Notes under the pieces: generated by a model | What the model was told of the DNA's origin: nothing | Seen by the model: only the letters and a program-made list of their open reading frames with translations | Database searches by the model: none | In this document: piece by piece, positions 36,913 through 39,674 of the stretch | Layout of the letters: each line of letters starts with the position of its first letter | Numbering within the stretch: the first letter of the stretch is position 1 | Made by a program: the position numbers and the translations under genes | DNA from: Chitinophaga pinensis | Lineage (GTDB): Bacteria; Bacteroidota; Bacteroidia; UBA4408 | Assembly: GCA_945861665.1 (NCBI GenBank) | Contig: CAMAVS010000002.1 | Location: 62,001 to 126,000, forward strand | Length of the DNA stretch: 64,000 bases | Direction of reading: 5' to 3'

Positions 36913-38007
36913 TTACTTTGTAACAGTAAACTTTTTAGTTAAACGCCCTAATTCTGAACTAACTGTGTAGTAATAAACACCAGTCGCGAAGTCTTTTGTG
37001 TCAACCTGTACGTTGTTAACGGCGCCCGCATTTACAGAAGATGTGTTAGCAAATACTTTTGACCCAACAGTGTTAAATATCTCAAGTTTTGCTTCTGTGT
37101 TTTTTTCAGCAGCATACCCAATTTTAATTACCCCGTTTGTGGGATTTGGAAAGGCGTTCAATTTAAAACCAAAACCATATTCTTCACCTTCAATAATAAA
37201 ATCTGCATCATCAAACGTTGCCCAAATAGCCAATGATCTTGATGCGAAGTTGGCATTAGGGTCGCTATACAAATGATCGGCCTCCCACCACCACATTGCA
37301 GCGTTTTGATCAGGCAAGCCAATGAAAGTAAGTGTTGGATCAATTCCTCCACCTTGACCAGAACAAACGATACCCATAGTATCAGCTGCTGCAGCTATTG
37401 CAGTAAAGTCAACTGAAATTGCGTATTTAGTAGAAACAAACACTGGAGGATTAAATGAAGCAACGGATAGCATGCCGTTATTTGTGTCTAAAGAGCCCCA
37501 AGCGATTGTTTGTGTTCCTAAAACAGCGCCAGGACAAATAATTGTATTTTGTCCGTAAGTTGATGTTCCGTCTAATTTTTGGATTTTTACAGTAAGTGGC
37601 TGTCCACTACCAACAGAAACTTGCTCTTTTGCACCAACCCAAACCAAAGCATCAAGAATTTTATATGACCCTTTGCCTTTGTAGCCACCTGCGCCAGTTA
37701 AATACCCTTGCGCAACAGCTTTTTCTGATTTATACAATGCCGGTTGTCCTTGTGCAGCAAAATTAATTTTGTTAACACCAAAACAATATCCTCCTCCAAA
37801 GTTGCCGTATATCTGAGATTGGCCACCACCCAGGTAAGTAGGTAAATCAACAGTATCTGTAGATGCATTAACTTTACCAGCAGCAATCGCTGACGGATTT
37901 AAGGATAGGTTCTTCGATGCCCCAACTTGTGGCTGAGGGTTATTGTTTTGTGCAAAAACAACTGAGCCTATGGAAATAATTCCAATAAGTGTGTAAATTT
38001 TTTTCAT
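36913..38007 (-). CDS. T9SS type A sorting-domain secreted protein
   Basis: A 364-residue secreted protein. Signal peptide 1-19 (ending FAQ). The middle (60-265) is a jelly-roll-like region with no recognised enzyme motif, containing YCFGVNKINFAAQG and FVSTKYAISVDFTAIAAA. The last 75 residues are a type A T9SS sorting domain: NAFPNPTNGVIKIGY, AKLEIFNTVGSKVF, GVYYYTVSSELGRLTKKFTV. It is therefore exported through T9SS and probably surface-attached. A truncated second copy of its 3' end lies at 34762. Long AT-rich leader upstream (38008-38100). Confidence 0.85.
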   Translation of the reverse strand: MKKIYTLIGIISIGSVVFAQNNNPQPQVGASKNLSLNPSAIAAGKVNASTDTVDLPTYLGGGQSQIYGNFGGGYCFGVNKINFAAQGQPALYKSEKAVAQGYLTGAGGYKGKGSYKILDALVWVGAKEQVSVGSGQPLTVKIQKLDGTSTYGQNTIICPGAVLGTQTIAWGSLDTNNGMLSVASFNPPVFVSTKYAISVDFTAIAAAADTMGIVCSGQGGGIDPTLTFIGLPDQNAAMWWWEADHLYSDPNANFASRSLAIWATFDDADFIIEGEEYGFGFKLNAFPNPTNGVIKIGYAAEKNTEAKLEIFNTVGSKVFANTSSVNAGAVNNVQVDTKDFATGVYYYTVSSELGRLTKKFTVTK

Positions 38008-38138
38008 TTTTAAAATTGTGTTTTAAGTTTATGTTAACAAATATAAGCATTGTTTTTAAAACAAAATTAAAAATCGCCTCTTTTTAACATTCGCAAAAGG
38101 AGATTATTTACCATTTAAAGTAAACTGTAAATAATAAC

Positions 38139-38243
38139 ACATAATATTTGTAGGCAGAAGTTGAGTATAAAAAACATAAAAATTGCATTTAATATAAAAG
38201 GCCCTGTAATATGCAAGGCTTTTCGCTCCCTCTCTTGGGCTCG
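38139..38243 (-). repeat. Left copy of the tRNA-Asn 3' end / terminator / nuclease 5' unit (degraded)
   Basis: Matches 38505-38609 in the same orientation. It holds 18 bases identical to the tRNA-Asn 3' end (38226-38243), a copy of the tRNA terminator hairpin (38197-38224) and a decayed start of a GIY-YIG reading frame (LYSTSAYKYYV in place of LYSISADKYYVG), after which the frame is lost. The tRNA and terminator part is nearly identical; the coding part has diverged by roughly 15-20 percent by eye. Confidence 0.8.
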
Positions 38244-38270
38244 CCCCGATAGCCATCGGGGCAAGGGACC
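38244..38270. repeat. Palindrome inserted in the T-arm remnant of the duplicated tRNA end
   Basis: CCCCGATAGCCATCGGGG (38244-38261) is a near-perfect palindrome placed between CAAGGGACC (38262-38270, like the 5' T-arm strand of tRNA-Asn) and the 18-base tRNA 3' end. GCCCCGATnnnnATCGGGGC-like palindromes are frequent in many Bacteroidota genomes; this is from memory and unchecked. Confidence 0.6.
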
Positions 38271-38554
38271 TAACTTAATCTGGCAATAAGCTTGTGTATT
38301 ATGTCGGGATGCTGCTTTAGGTTTTGGTAGTATATTCTTGATTTCATCCGTTTAATATGCTTTTCTACTCTTCTTGCAACCAAAAGAGAACCACAATCAT
38401 ACGTCCAATAAACCTCCCAATCATCGGCTATTTTCGTTGAGGACTTCTCAAATGCTTTTGCACGATGCAAAAATAACCGCTCGTTTAAATCTTTGGTTTC
38501 TCCAACGTAATATTTATCGGCAGAAATTGAGTATAAAATATATACAAAGTGCAT
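38270..38554 (-). CDS. GIY-YIG nuclease family protein
   Basis: A 94-residue single-domain nuclease of the UPF0213/GIY-YIG type. GIY is VYI (residues 4-6, FVYILYS), YIG is YVG (YYVGET), then the catalytic Arg in NERLFLH and Glu in ARRVEKHIKRMKS. Such small Bacteroidota GIY-YIG proteins often occur in several copies per genome, frequently near RNA genes. Here it follows the tRNA-Asn terminator directly, ends exactly where the remnant of a second tRNA 3' end begins, and a degraded copy of its own 5' end follows. It is thus part of a tRNA-linked repeat unit of about 366 bases. Confidence 0.85.
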   Translation of the reverse strand: MHFVYILYSISADKYYVGETKDLNERLFLHRAKAFEKSSTKIADDWEVYWTYDCGSLLVARRVEKHIKRMKSRIYYQNLKQHPDIIHKLIARLS

Positions 38555-38609
38555 ATAATATAAAAAGCCCTGCTATGTGCAAGGCTTTTCGCTCCCTCTC
38601 TTGGGCTCG
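38505..38609 (-). repeat. Right copy of the tRNA-Asn 3' end / terminator / nuclease 5' unit
   Basis: Functional counterpart of 38139-38243: start of the GIY-YIG gene, the tRNA terminator, and the last 18 bases of the intact tRNA-Asn gene. The offset between copies is 366 bases. Confidence 0.8.
38563..38589 (-). terminator. Terminator of tRNA-Asn
   Basis: On the minus strand AAGCCTTGC / GCAGGGCTT forms a nine-pair stem (two G-T pairs) with a five-base loop and T-run, three bases after the tRNA 3' end. It separates the tRNA from the GIY-YIG gene. Confidence 0.75.
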
Positions 38610-38665
38610 AACCAAGGACCCCATGATTAACAGTCATGTGCTCTAACCAGCTGAGCTAAGAAGGA
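38592..38665 (-). tRNA. tRNA-Asn (GTT)
   Basis: A 74-nt cloverleaf on the minus strand. Acceptor stem TCCTTCT/AGAGGGA with one G-T pair and discriminator G; D-arm AGCTCAGCTGGTTAGAGC; anticodon loop CTGTTAA with anticodon GTT at about 38629-38631; T-arm CTTGGTTCGAGCCCAAG. CCA is not encoded. Its last 18 bases recur at 38226-38243. Confidence 0.97.
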
Positions 38666-38712
38666 ATGTTATTTTGGGAGGGCAAAAGTAGACAAAACAA
38701 ATAAATATACAA

Positions 38713-38720
38713 TATATTTG
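38713..38720 (+). promoter_or_regulatory. Bacteroidota -7 promoter motif for the PfkB kinase
   Basis: TATATTTG 27 bases before the ATG at 38748, with an A-rich leader ending AAACAAACAAAATG, as often found before well-translated Bacteroidota genes. Confidence 0.55.
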
Positions 38721-38747
38721 TGCGAAAATTTAAAAAAAACAAACAAA

Positions 38748-39674
38748 ATGAGCTTGTTAGTTGTAGGTACAGTAGCCTTTGATGCCATTGAAACTCCTTT
38801 CGGGAAAACAGATAAAATTGTAGGTGGGGCAGCTACATACATTGGCTTATCTGCGAGTTATTTTACAAATAAAATCAATTTGGTTTCAGTAGTTGGCGAA
38901 GATTTCCCACAAGAAGCCATTGATATGCTGAAAAAGCACAAAATAAACACTTCGGGCTTACAAATAAAAAAAGGAGAAAAAACTTTCTTTTGGAGTGGTA
39001 AGTACCACAACGATATGAATACGCGCGACACTTTAGCAACGGAACTAAATGTGCTGATGAATTTTGACCCGATTGTTCCCGAAGAGGCAAAGAATTGCGA
39101 TTTTTTAATGCTAGGAAACTTAATGCCAGCTTTACAACGACAAGTTATTGAGCAAATGAGCAAACGGCCAAAGCTAATTGTAATGGACACGATGAACTTT
39201 TGGATGGACTCGGCTATGGACGAACTTAAAAAAACCATTGCTATGGTAGATGTGTTGGCAATAAACGATGCAGAAGCCCGTCAACTTTCGGGAGAATATT
39301 CTCTTGTAAAGGCGGCTCAAAAAATATTGGAAATGGGTGCTAAATACCTCATTATTAAAAAAGGAGAACACGGAGCTTTGTTGTTTAACAAACAACAAGT
39401 GTTTTTTGCTCCAGCATTACCATTAGAGGACGTGTTTGACCCAACTGGCGCAGGCGACACTTTTGCCGGTGGTTTTATTGGCTATCTTGCACAAACAGAA
39501 GATATCTCTTTCGAAAATATGAAAAGGGCAATTATTTTTGGCTCTGCAATGGCTTCGTTTTGCGTTGAAAAATTTGGCACCGAAAAATTAATTGGATTAA
39601 CTCAGGAACAGGTTAGTGAAAGAGTGCAAGAGTTTATTGACCTTGTACAGTTCGATATTTCTTTAGTAAGTTAA
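38748..39674 (+). CDS. PfkB-family carbohydrate/nucleoside kinase
   Basis: A 308-residue ribokinase-like enzyme that uses ATP to phosphorylate a sugar or nucleoside. The signature DPTGAGDTFAGGF (about residues 235-247) holds the catalytic Asp and anion hole, and the N-terminal GGAATYIGLSA (about 27-37) the substrate-binding Gly-Gly. The start is the ATG at 38748 (MSLLVVGTVAFDAIETPFG); an upstream start would overlap the promoter. Substrate is unassigned. It overlaps the end of the convergent gene by 12 bases. Confidence 0.88.
   Translation: MSLLVVGTVAFDAIETPFGKTDKIVGGAATYIGLSASYFTNKINLVSVVGEDFPQEAIDMLKKHKINTSGLQIKKGEKTFFWSGKYHNDMNTRDTLATELNVLMNFDPIVPEEAKNCDFLMLGNLMPALQRQVIEQMSKRPKLIVMDTMNFWMDSAMDELKKTIAMVDVLAINDAEARQLSGEYSLVKAAQKILEMGAKYLIIKKGEHGALLFNKQQVFFAPALPLEDVFDPTGAGDTFAGGFIGYLAQTEDISFENMKRAIIFGSAMASFCVEKFGTEKLIGLTQEQVSERVQEFIDLVQFDISLVS

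Follow-up and report, generated by a model that had tools for sequence, protein, structure and literature searches.

What process leaves a tRNA gene followed by a nuclease gene and then by a second copy of the tRNA's own 3' end? This question is raised by a tRNA-Asn locus in a stretch of 64,000 nucleotides from Chitinophaga pinensis (the window; positions refer to it). All parts of the locus lie on the minus strand. The intact tRNA-Asn(GTT), which is the working copy (38591..38665; ARAGORN; Rfam tRNA 64 bits), is separated by a terminator-like hairpin (38562..38590) from a gene for a GIY-YIG nuclease of 94 amino acids without any other domain (38270..38554; PF01541, E 4.4e-10). The stop codon of this gene (38272-38270) abuts a displaced tRNA piece consisting of the variable-arm GGTCC and the start of the T stem (38262..38270, by direct reading), and base 38270 is common to both, being the first base of the piece. 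An 18-nt palindrome, CCCCGATGGCTATCGGGG, stands in place of the T-arm GTT (38244..38261, by direct reading) and is predicted to form, together with the T stem, a hairpin of 11 pairs. Next come the displaced tRNA-Asn 3' end (38225..38243), a second terminator-like hairpin (38201..38219), and the decayed start of a second, truncated nuclease gene left by an older unit (38139..38188, identified by repeat alignment). The two terminator-like sites of the locus compare with a mean of 0.7 after shuffling.

An initial annotation, made from the sequence alone, had described this order of parts and a repeat offset of 366 bases, and both were borne out: all parts are present, and a direct repeat of 105 nt with 88% identity (38139-38243 and 38505-38609, spacing 366) contains, in this order, the last 19 tRNA bases unchanged, the terminator, and the start of the nuclease frame. 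The second tRNA 3' end is indeed an unchanged duplicate; its length had been given as 18 bases and is 19 of 19 by alignment. Similarly, the palindrome does lie in a T-arm remnant, where it replaces GTT, and the remnant is larger than had been supposed, as the nuclease stop runs directly into the variable-arm GGTCC. The layout of this piece recurs in related loci. We found no convincing RNA family besides tRNA in 37900-39000, and between the intact tRNA and the displaced end the GIY-YIG gene is the sole recognizable gene, with no integrase. The locus at this tRNA-Asn is of the 3' type and comprises one intact and one decayed unit. The suggestion that old ends had been pushed downstream twice is only partly borne out, as the second, decayed unit may stem from a second insertion or from a duplication.

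Is the association of nuclease and tRNA peculiar to this locus? A match to the nuclease was present in 83 of the 198 genomes searched, the window's own included. Among the first 30 loci, which were the best matches (L010-L039), a tRNA gene on the same strand lay at most 200 nt upstream in 24 and downstream in 2 more. The 40 follow-up loci were weaker matches picked non-randomly down the match list, with contig-edge matches, array copies and known loci excluded; 35 of them had a same-strand tRNA within 200 nt up- or downstream, the exceptions being L257, L261, L262, L275, and L279. For comparison, a tRNA was that near in only 1 of 40 Y1-transposase loci taken from palindrome-rich genomes. The tRNA kinds concerned were Asn, Met, Leu, Val, Ala, Phe, Thr, Arg, Pro, His, Ser, Lys, Asp, and Glu. 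A link between this nuclease family and tRNA ends, whose absence would have counted against the initial annotation, holds in most of the Bacteroidota relatives examined, and also elsewhere in the window's genome. There, a tRNA-Arg gene is preceded at a distance of 31 nt by the other small GIY-YIG gene (L001), upstream of which lie a displaced tRNA-Arg 5' end of 11 bases and hairpins, and a site near tRNA-Val carries a probable scar. A third PF01541 match lies in an open frame of 609 amino acids, with no tRNA in its 3.2-kb locus. At the tRNA-Val site (L064, C5:4146-4163), the D loop that holds the palindrome belongs to a displaced tRNA-Val 5' end, which directly precedes the intact tRNA-Val; with no nuclease between the pieces, this is likely an ORF-less 5'-end scar.

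The displaced 3' end proved to be equally recurrent. Counting one unit per locus, we found in 65 of 92 loci a copy of the adjacent tRNA's own 3' end no more than 250 nt from the end of the ORF (score at least 9); when ten other tRNAs were tried at each locus, 2 of 920 trials gave such a match. At a score of 11 the figures were 61/92 and 0/920. When array members were counted individually, a displaced 3' end was seen at 99 of 137 ORFs with a tRNA upstream (up to 5 kb). Chance is thereby excluded as the source of the displaced end. In most displaced copies a short hairpin directly precedes the matched 3' end, within a former loop or arm of the tRNA. These counts support, together with the empty sites described below, the proposal of the initial annotation that an integrase-free unit with a nuclease as its only gene comes with a tRNA 3' end of its own and shifts the previous end downstream; homing, that is, cutting followed by copying, has not been demonstrated.

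The arrangement also exists in mirror image. In Flavobacteriaceae and others (for example L133, L135, L136, L140, L142, and L154), a displaced 5' end with a palindrome or hairpin in its D loop is followed by the nuclease ORF and then by the intact tRNA-Asn; L001 of the window's genome is of this mirror 5' type. A displaced 5' end was detected in 24 of 29 such 5'-type loci, in 23 of those 24 with a hairpin right after it. It was also present upstream in 23 of 99 3'-type loci (22 of the 23 with a hairpin), so that, both types pooled, a hairpin directly followed the displaced 5' end in 45/47 cases. The control with other tRNAs gave 16/1280, and no displaced 5' end was found in 13 empty loci of the pfkB/tRNA-Asn neighbourhood described next. 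The left and right tRNA pieces overlap in G012 and in G112. Three fragment ends in the genus of G112 fall after the T-loop GGTTC, which would fit a cut at that place, although there are only these three cases. Separately, ARAGORN reported at L240 (complement 1991-2069) a tRNA-like gene of full length to which no amino acid was assigned; in this tRNA-Asn body the hairpin TCCCGAATCTCGGGA takes the place of the anticodon arm.

Empty sites, for which the initial annotation had advised looking in related genomes, were found in two genera and in the window's own family. The tRNA-Asn of the window is divergent from a pfkB-type sugar kinase gene (38591-39674 in the window; L196-L224), a conserved neighbourhood that 18 of the 30 loci retrieved with the kinase share and that is filled in four genomes (G000, G035, G027, and G012). 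Four members of the same family (G001, G002, G005, and G007) carry the tRNA-Asn without a nuclease at this place and have no nuclease match genome-wide; in G006 the locus is cut by the contig end. Two nuclease lineages occupy this one neighbourhood, with their hairpins in different arms.

More detailed evidence came from the tRNA-Leu(caa) locus of the genus g8, where six genomes were readable: G010, G183, and G092 are filled, G056, G198, and G154 are empty, and the flanks align on both sides at 84-92% (in a seventh genome, G124, only the right flank). The filled form consists of a 5' piece with hairpin, the intact tRNA, the terminator, the nuclease, and a 3' piece with hairpin. The outer pieces of G092 have the acceptor pair GCCCGG/CCGGG, as does the empty G154, while the intact tRNA between them has GCCCAG/CTGGG. 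It is as if the intact tRNA of G092 had come with the element, an argument that is drawn from these letters and rests on one genome. G010 is mixed, as its 5' piece matches the intact tRNA, and in the window the two ends are identical, so a differing origin of substitute and native end is clear only in G092. Moreover, the empty G056 and G198 are of the GCCCAG type, their tRNA being identical to the intact tRNA of the filled alleles, and this may equally be the native type. The same identity implies that a target lying wholly within the tRNA would leave the donor open to cutting, and self-cutting must then be avoided in some other way.

The units can also be multiplied. At the tRNA-Asn locus of one genus, we counted about 4.5 units and three 5' pieces in G112, two units in G199, and none in G200, which carries a relocated copy of the unit on another contig. 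In this relocated copy (L333, C5), which lies away from any intact tRNA and whose frame seems to hold a stop, the limits are a start in a tRNA anticodon arm and an end after the T-loop GGTTC. The arrays of G112 comprise ten near-identical units with a period of 457 after tRNA-Met (L041) and the approximately 4.5 units with a period of 379 after tRNA-Asn (L040); the three 5' pieces before this tRNA-Asn have a period of 127. The two units of G199 are identical at 81 of 83 residues. Such near-identical arrays are best explained by local duplication, and the window's own terminators and ORF starts, 88% alike between the two copies, are compatible with the same process. It might be argued that nothing else is required, namely that a tRNA-nuclease segment was duplicated in tandem and then decayed, with the nuclease as a mere passenger. 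The initial annotation had stated that simple tandem duplication gives the same picture, which stands for the arrays of G112 and G199. It fails for the mirror 5' form with its hairpins at lineage-specific places and for the displaced halves of G092, which match each other and the empty relative and not the intact tRNA; in addition, many kinds of tRNA genes have been occupied independently, and the pfkB/tRNA-Asn locus has been occupied by two nuclease lineages that differ in the arm of the hairpin. As an account of the whole, we consider plain duplication improbable.

Tandem arrays at tRNA genes might alternatively point to a service to the host: the nuclease would amplify tRNA loci when tRNAs are under attack, or act on tRNA, and the displaced ends would be by-products. 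A precedent is SegB of phage T6, which amplifies tRNA-Tyr against Septu according to the available part of the account (PMC13096335). However, what is multiplied in the arrays of G112 is the nuclease together with tRNA fragments; intact tRNAs are not, ARAGORN having found one each in L040 and L041. The patchy presence of the nuclease (83/198 genomes) and the truncated or stop-bearing copies that occur among relatives likewise speak against such a service, and we find this explanation hardly credible.

What kind of protein does the unit encode? The GIY-YIG catalytic residues Y5, Y16, G18, R26, H30, and E64 are conserved or nearly so among the homologues, and the AlphaFold2 model of the window nuclease has a mean pLDDT of 94.7. 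The nearest solved relative by profile is a UPF0213 protein (1zg2, E 4.5e-6). The top rows of the Foldseek search were 1zg2 and SLX1, with the catalytic domain of I-TevI lower, all at E > 0.001. PHROG 5123, "homing endonuclease with GIY-YIG motif", matched the window protein (E 3.6e-4) and gave no match for the two other proteins that were tried. Among curated protein families, a group I intron endonuclease was the sole match, below its cut-off. No relatives of the window protein were found in plasmids, phages, or IMG/VR (two IMG/VR scans), and we rejected plasmid or phage cargo as an explanation for want of such matches.

The remaining component is the hairpin. On a FastTree phylogeny of 150 nucleases, with one row per listed array locus and proteins shorter than 68 amino acids or with stops excluded, the tRNA label changed 37 times (n = 102, 20 labels), compared to a mean of 66.7 and a minimum of 60 in 1000 shuffles. 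Hairpin position, in six classes, changed 22 times (n = 63; shuffled mean 36.4, minimum 30), and no shuffle in 1000 was as low. This was also true when positions were shuffled within isoacceptors (mean 29.7, minimum 24; 0/1000 as low). One locus, L013, was misclassed in this test; by eye it belongs to the T-loop class of its clade, so the error works against the result. In the clade of the window, which occurs at Asn, Met, Phe, and Thr genes, the hairpin is constant at the T-loop bases. As hairpin position follows nuclease lineage, we read the hairpin as lying where the presumed cut is made.

Of the hairpins mapped at 67 loci, 35 have the core CCGAWAGCTWTCGG or a near form and 20 another CCCG..CGGG stem. 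Their pairing alone is no evidence, since mapping required complementary arms. A second type of hairpin, ATGGCGAG....CTCGCCAT, was seen at L250, L273, and L001, in units at tRNA-His, tRNA-Ser, and the tRNA-Arg of the window's genome. In G112 all seven words of the type TCCCGNNNNNNCGGGA lie at the nuclease locus, where its congener G199 has other inner letters, and we rejected a purely dispersed palindrome on account of these seven copies. The first inner pair was complementary in 10 of 10 hairpins at nuclease loci (AT 4, TA 3, CG 3) compared to 27 of 50 elsewhere (P 0.005). Here the seven copies of G112 were counted as two types, and one of two identical copies of G035 was dropped. The count had initially omitted ten G076 rows outside its nuclease contig; with these restored, it was 35 of 60 elsewhere (P 0.008). 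Thus, judging from the letters of a small sample, pairing seems to be kept while the sequence changes.

Palindromes of this kind are not restricted to tRNA genes. In the whole genome of the window, the pattern CCCCGATNGCNATCGGGG occurs at 6 places, compared to 0 in the reversed control. CCCGATNGCNATCGGG is dispersed in 64 of 198 genomes, and its reversed control was 0 in all listed genomes but one. Of the 18 genomes in which the nuclease has a close relative (E at most 1e-12), 17 contain it at least twice, compared to 31 of the remaining 180; when only Y1-bearing genomes were compared, the numbers were 17/18 and 29/125. TCCGCCTNAGGCGGA is carried by the array of G168 and occurs 23 times in that genome, compared to 6 times in G014 and 0-1 times in the 18 others searched. 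The Fisher tests treat related genomes as independent. T and A flanked the dispersed palindrome (TCCCG..CGGGA) in 43 of 63 copies examined, in which we detected no convincing insertion motif. One 18-nt palindrome of the window's genome (L061, C2:23622-23639) lies inside an open frame of 446 codons without breaking it and may be an in-frame insertion in a protein gene.

These observations raise the possibility that the hairpin is the active part of a nuclease-hairpin mobility with a logic like that of RAYT/REP or IS200/IS605, in which the GIY-YIG protein recognizes hairpin DNA and can spread hairpins, tRNA arms serve as targets, and the inserted hairpin serves as a mark or end. The pairing kept in a changing inner stem, the excess of CCCGATNGCNATCGGG in genomes with a close nuclease, the copies of TCCGCCTNAGGCGGA in G168 and G014, and the structure-specific SLX1 among the nearest folds all fit this explanation. 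Nevertheless, dispersal is not general, given the seven words of G112; tRNA sequence lies on both sides of the hairpin, which is hence not the outer end of the element; and tRNA-like flanks accompany only 11 of the 63 dispersed copies. In addition, many copies occur in genomes without a detected nuclease (32 in G195, 28 in G101, 20 in G191), and the palindrome correlates with Y1 transposases as well (46/143 vs 2/55 genomes). On balance we regard an active hairpin as unlikely, without dismissing it. An ordinary RAYT/REP repeat was rejected, as CCCGATNGCNATCGGG was near only 4 of 40 Y1 loci in the 1.4-2.5 kb that had been fetched and several Y1 genes are accompanied by hairpins with a different sequence. 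Some of these RAYT-like genes (L092, L098, L102, and L110) have paired hairpins of their own type; at L092, CCCCGGGTTTTAACCCGGGG lies on both sides.

Overall, we think it probable, while being some way from certain, that the locus holds a compact homing-like selfish element that targets tRNA genes and consists of a GIY-YIG nuclease and a replacement tRNA or tRNA end; its cutting, its mobility and the role of its hairpin are unproven. What we observed directly is how its parts are arranged in either orientation, the empty alleles, the arrays and scars, and the association of hairpin position with nuclease lineage. From these we infer a cycle of tRNA-gene cutting and repair-driven copying. The nuclease would be expressed by read-through from the tRNA in the 3' type and from the promoter of the displaced 5' end in the 5' type. 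It would cut the tRNA gene in the D, anticodon, variable, or T arm according to its lineage, as inferred from hairpin position; the T-loop case would fit the published motif of SegB discussed below. Recombinational repair, with conserved tRNA sequence as homology, would then copy in the intact tRNA and the nuclease. This would disrupt the resident tRNA and displace one or both of its ends, with the cell surviving on the one tRNA that is intact; the end state of this step is seen directly. In the displaced ends the observed hairpin replaces the presumed cut site, and would leave them uncuttable and without tRNA function; the intact tRNA of filled g8 alleles, by comparison, equals that of the empty G056 and G198. 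Arrays would grow through further cycles or unequal exchange, and recombination would delete units to leave scars; arrays, empty sites, and scars themselves were found.

Several points count against this homing-like element. A hairpin with conserved ends exceeds what the mere destruction of a cut site needs. The overlapping left and right pieces of G012 and G112 are not given by a single clean split, and the near-identical arrays indicate that plain duplication is also at work. The absence of relatives from plasmids, phages, and IMG/VR leaves the transfer vehicle unidentified. Finally, no displaced 3' end was scored in 27 of 92 loci, and 5 of the 40 follow-up loci had no near tRNA. We can also formulate a bolder version, about which we are doubtful and which we offer only tentatively: these would be widespread minimal mobile elements whose nuclease of about 90 amino acids uses hairpins as marks, takes tRNA arms for its targets, spares one functional tRNA, and labels displaced pieces with a covarying hairpin that became a dispersed repeat in some lineages, a nuclease-hairpin system that would belong to none of the transposase, integrase, intron, and RAYT classes.

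Phages and organelles are the best-known sources of homing endonucleases that are not encoded within introns or inteins. If the favored explanation is true, essential tRNA genes house a nuclease family that is common on Bacteroidota chromosomes and avoids killing its host by keeping a working tRNA, the displaced tRNA ends form a readable fossil record, and many orphan GIY-YIG genes and tRNA fragments in Bacteroidota genomes are explained. It also raises the questions of how so small a nuclease (about 90 residues) selects a single tRNA gene, what function the hairpin has, and whether recombination driven by nucleases remodels tRNA loci in bacteria. In the open-licence literature, as covered by titles and the starts of abstracts, we found no account of tRNA-linked GIY-YIG genes in Bacteroidota, and other papers may exist. 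What is possibly new is a homing-type endonuclease element of a known kind in tRNA genes, with the hairpin as a new component.

How does the unit relate to known systems? Integrative elements that insert at the 3' ends of tRNA genes by means of a tyrosine integrase restore the gene with a copy of this end, which they bring along. Unlike these, the nuclease unit has no integrase, measures about 0.4 kb, exists in a 5'-end version, and has a hairpin inside the displaced end. A group I intron in the tRNA gene was rejected, as no intron family was found at the window locus or at 13 further loci and the tRNA-Asn is uninterrupted. The GIY-YIG domains of UPF0213, SLX1, UvrC, and I-TevI have their fold and sequence motifs in common with the window nuclease. 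REP/RAYT systems are described, in the excerpts at hand, as short palindromes, some of them dispersed over the genome, that are tied to a nuclease-type gene (PMC2817692, PMC3116915). In contrast, the tRNA unit has no Y1 transposase and its hairpin lies inside displaced tRNA pieces; the palindrome is not linked to Y1 transposases as a REP/RAYT system would require (near only 4/40 Y1 loci).

Closer in layout are the mobile ORFs of fungal mitochondria, known as hybrids of atp6, atp9, cox2, and nad3 and from Allomyces atp6, which bring a substitute gene end together with an endonuclease ORF and push the native end downstream, as far as the accessible part of the source goes (PMC3630166). The corresponding displacement of a native tRNA end beyond an endonuclease ORF is what we observed in 65/92 loci versus 2/920 trials. 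The fungal cases differ in that they concern protein genes and use a LAGLIDADG enzyme in the atp6 case; that part of the source presents 3' ends only and mentions no hairpin in the displaced end (PMC3630166).

Closest in kind are SegB and the free-standing GIY-YIG homing endonucleases of T-even phages, which, like the window locus, present a single GIY-YIG gene among tRNA genes in the sections of the papers available (PMC13096335, PMC2988022). SegB of phage T6 is reported there to cut inside tRNA genes at the motif RAWTSGAAC, and recombination amplifies the tRNA-segB segment (PMC13096335). By our own reading, the reverse complement of this motif, GTTCSAWTY, fits the tRNA T loop, which is the hairpin site of the window clade; this rests on a comparison of letters only. 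Three marks of a Seg-type gene were found: a GIY-YIG domain with its catalytic residues, a gene outside any intron or intein, and presence/absence polymorphism at one site. Unlike SegB, this family resides in bacterial chromosomes and not in phages, encodes proteins of only about 80-100 amino acids, has a displaced tRNA end with a hairpin at nearly every well-preserved unit, and forms lineages tied to single tRNA kinds, and its cutting is inferred. By analogy with these two systems, our best reading is that of a putative SegB-like, homing-type element laid out as the fungal mitochondrial mobile ORFs are, which leaves one intact tRNA.
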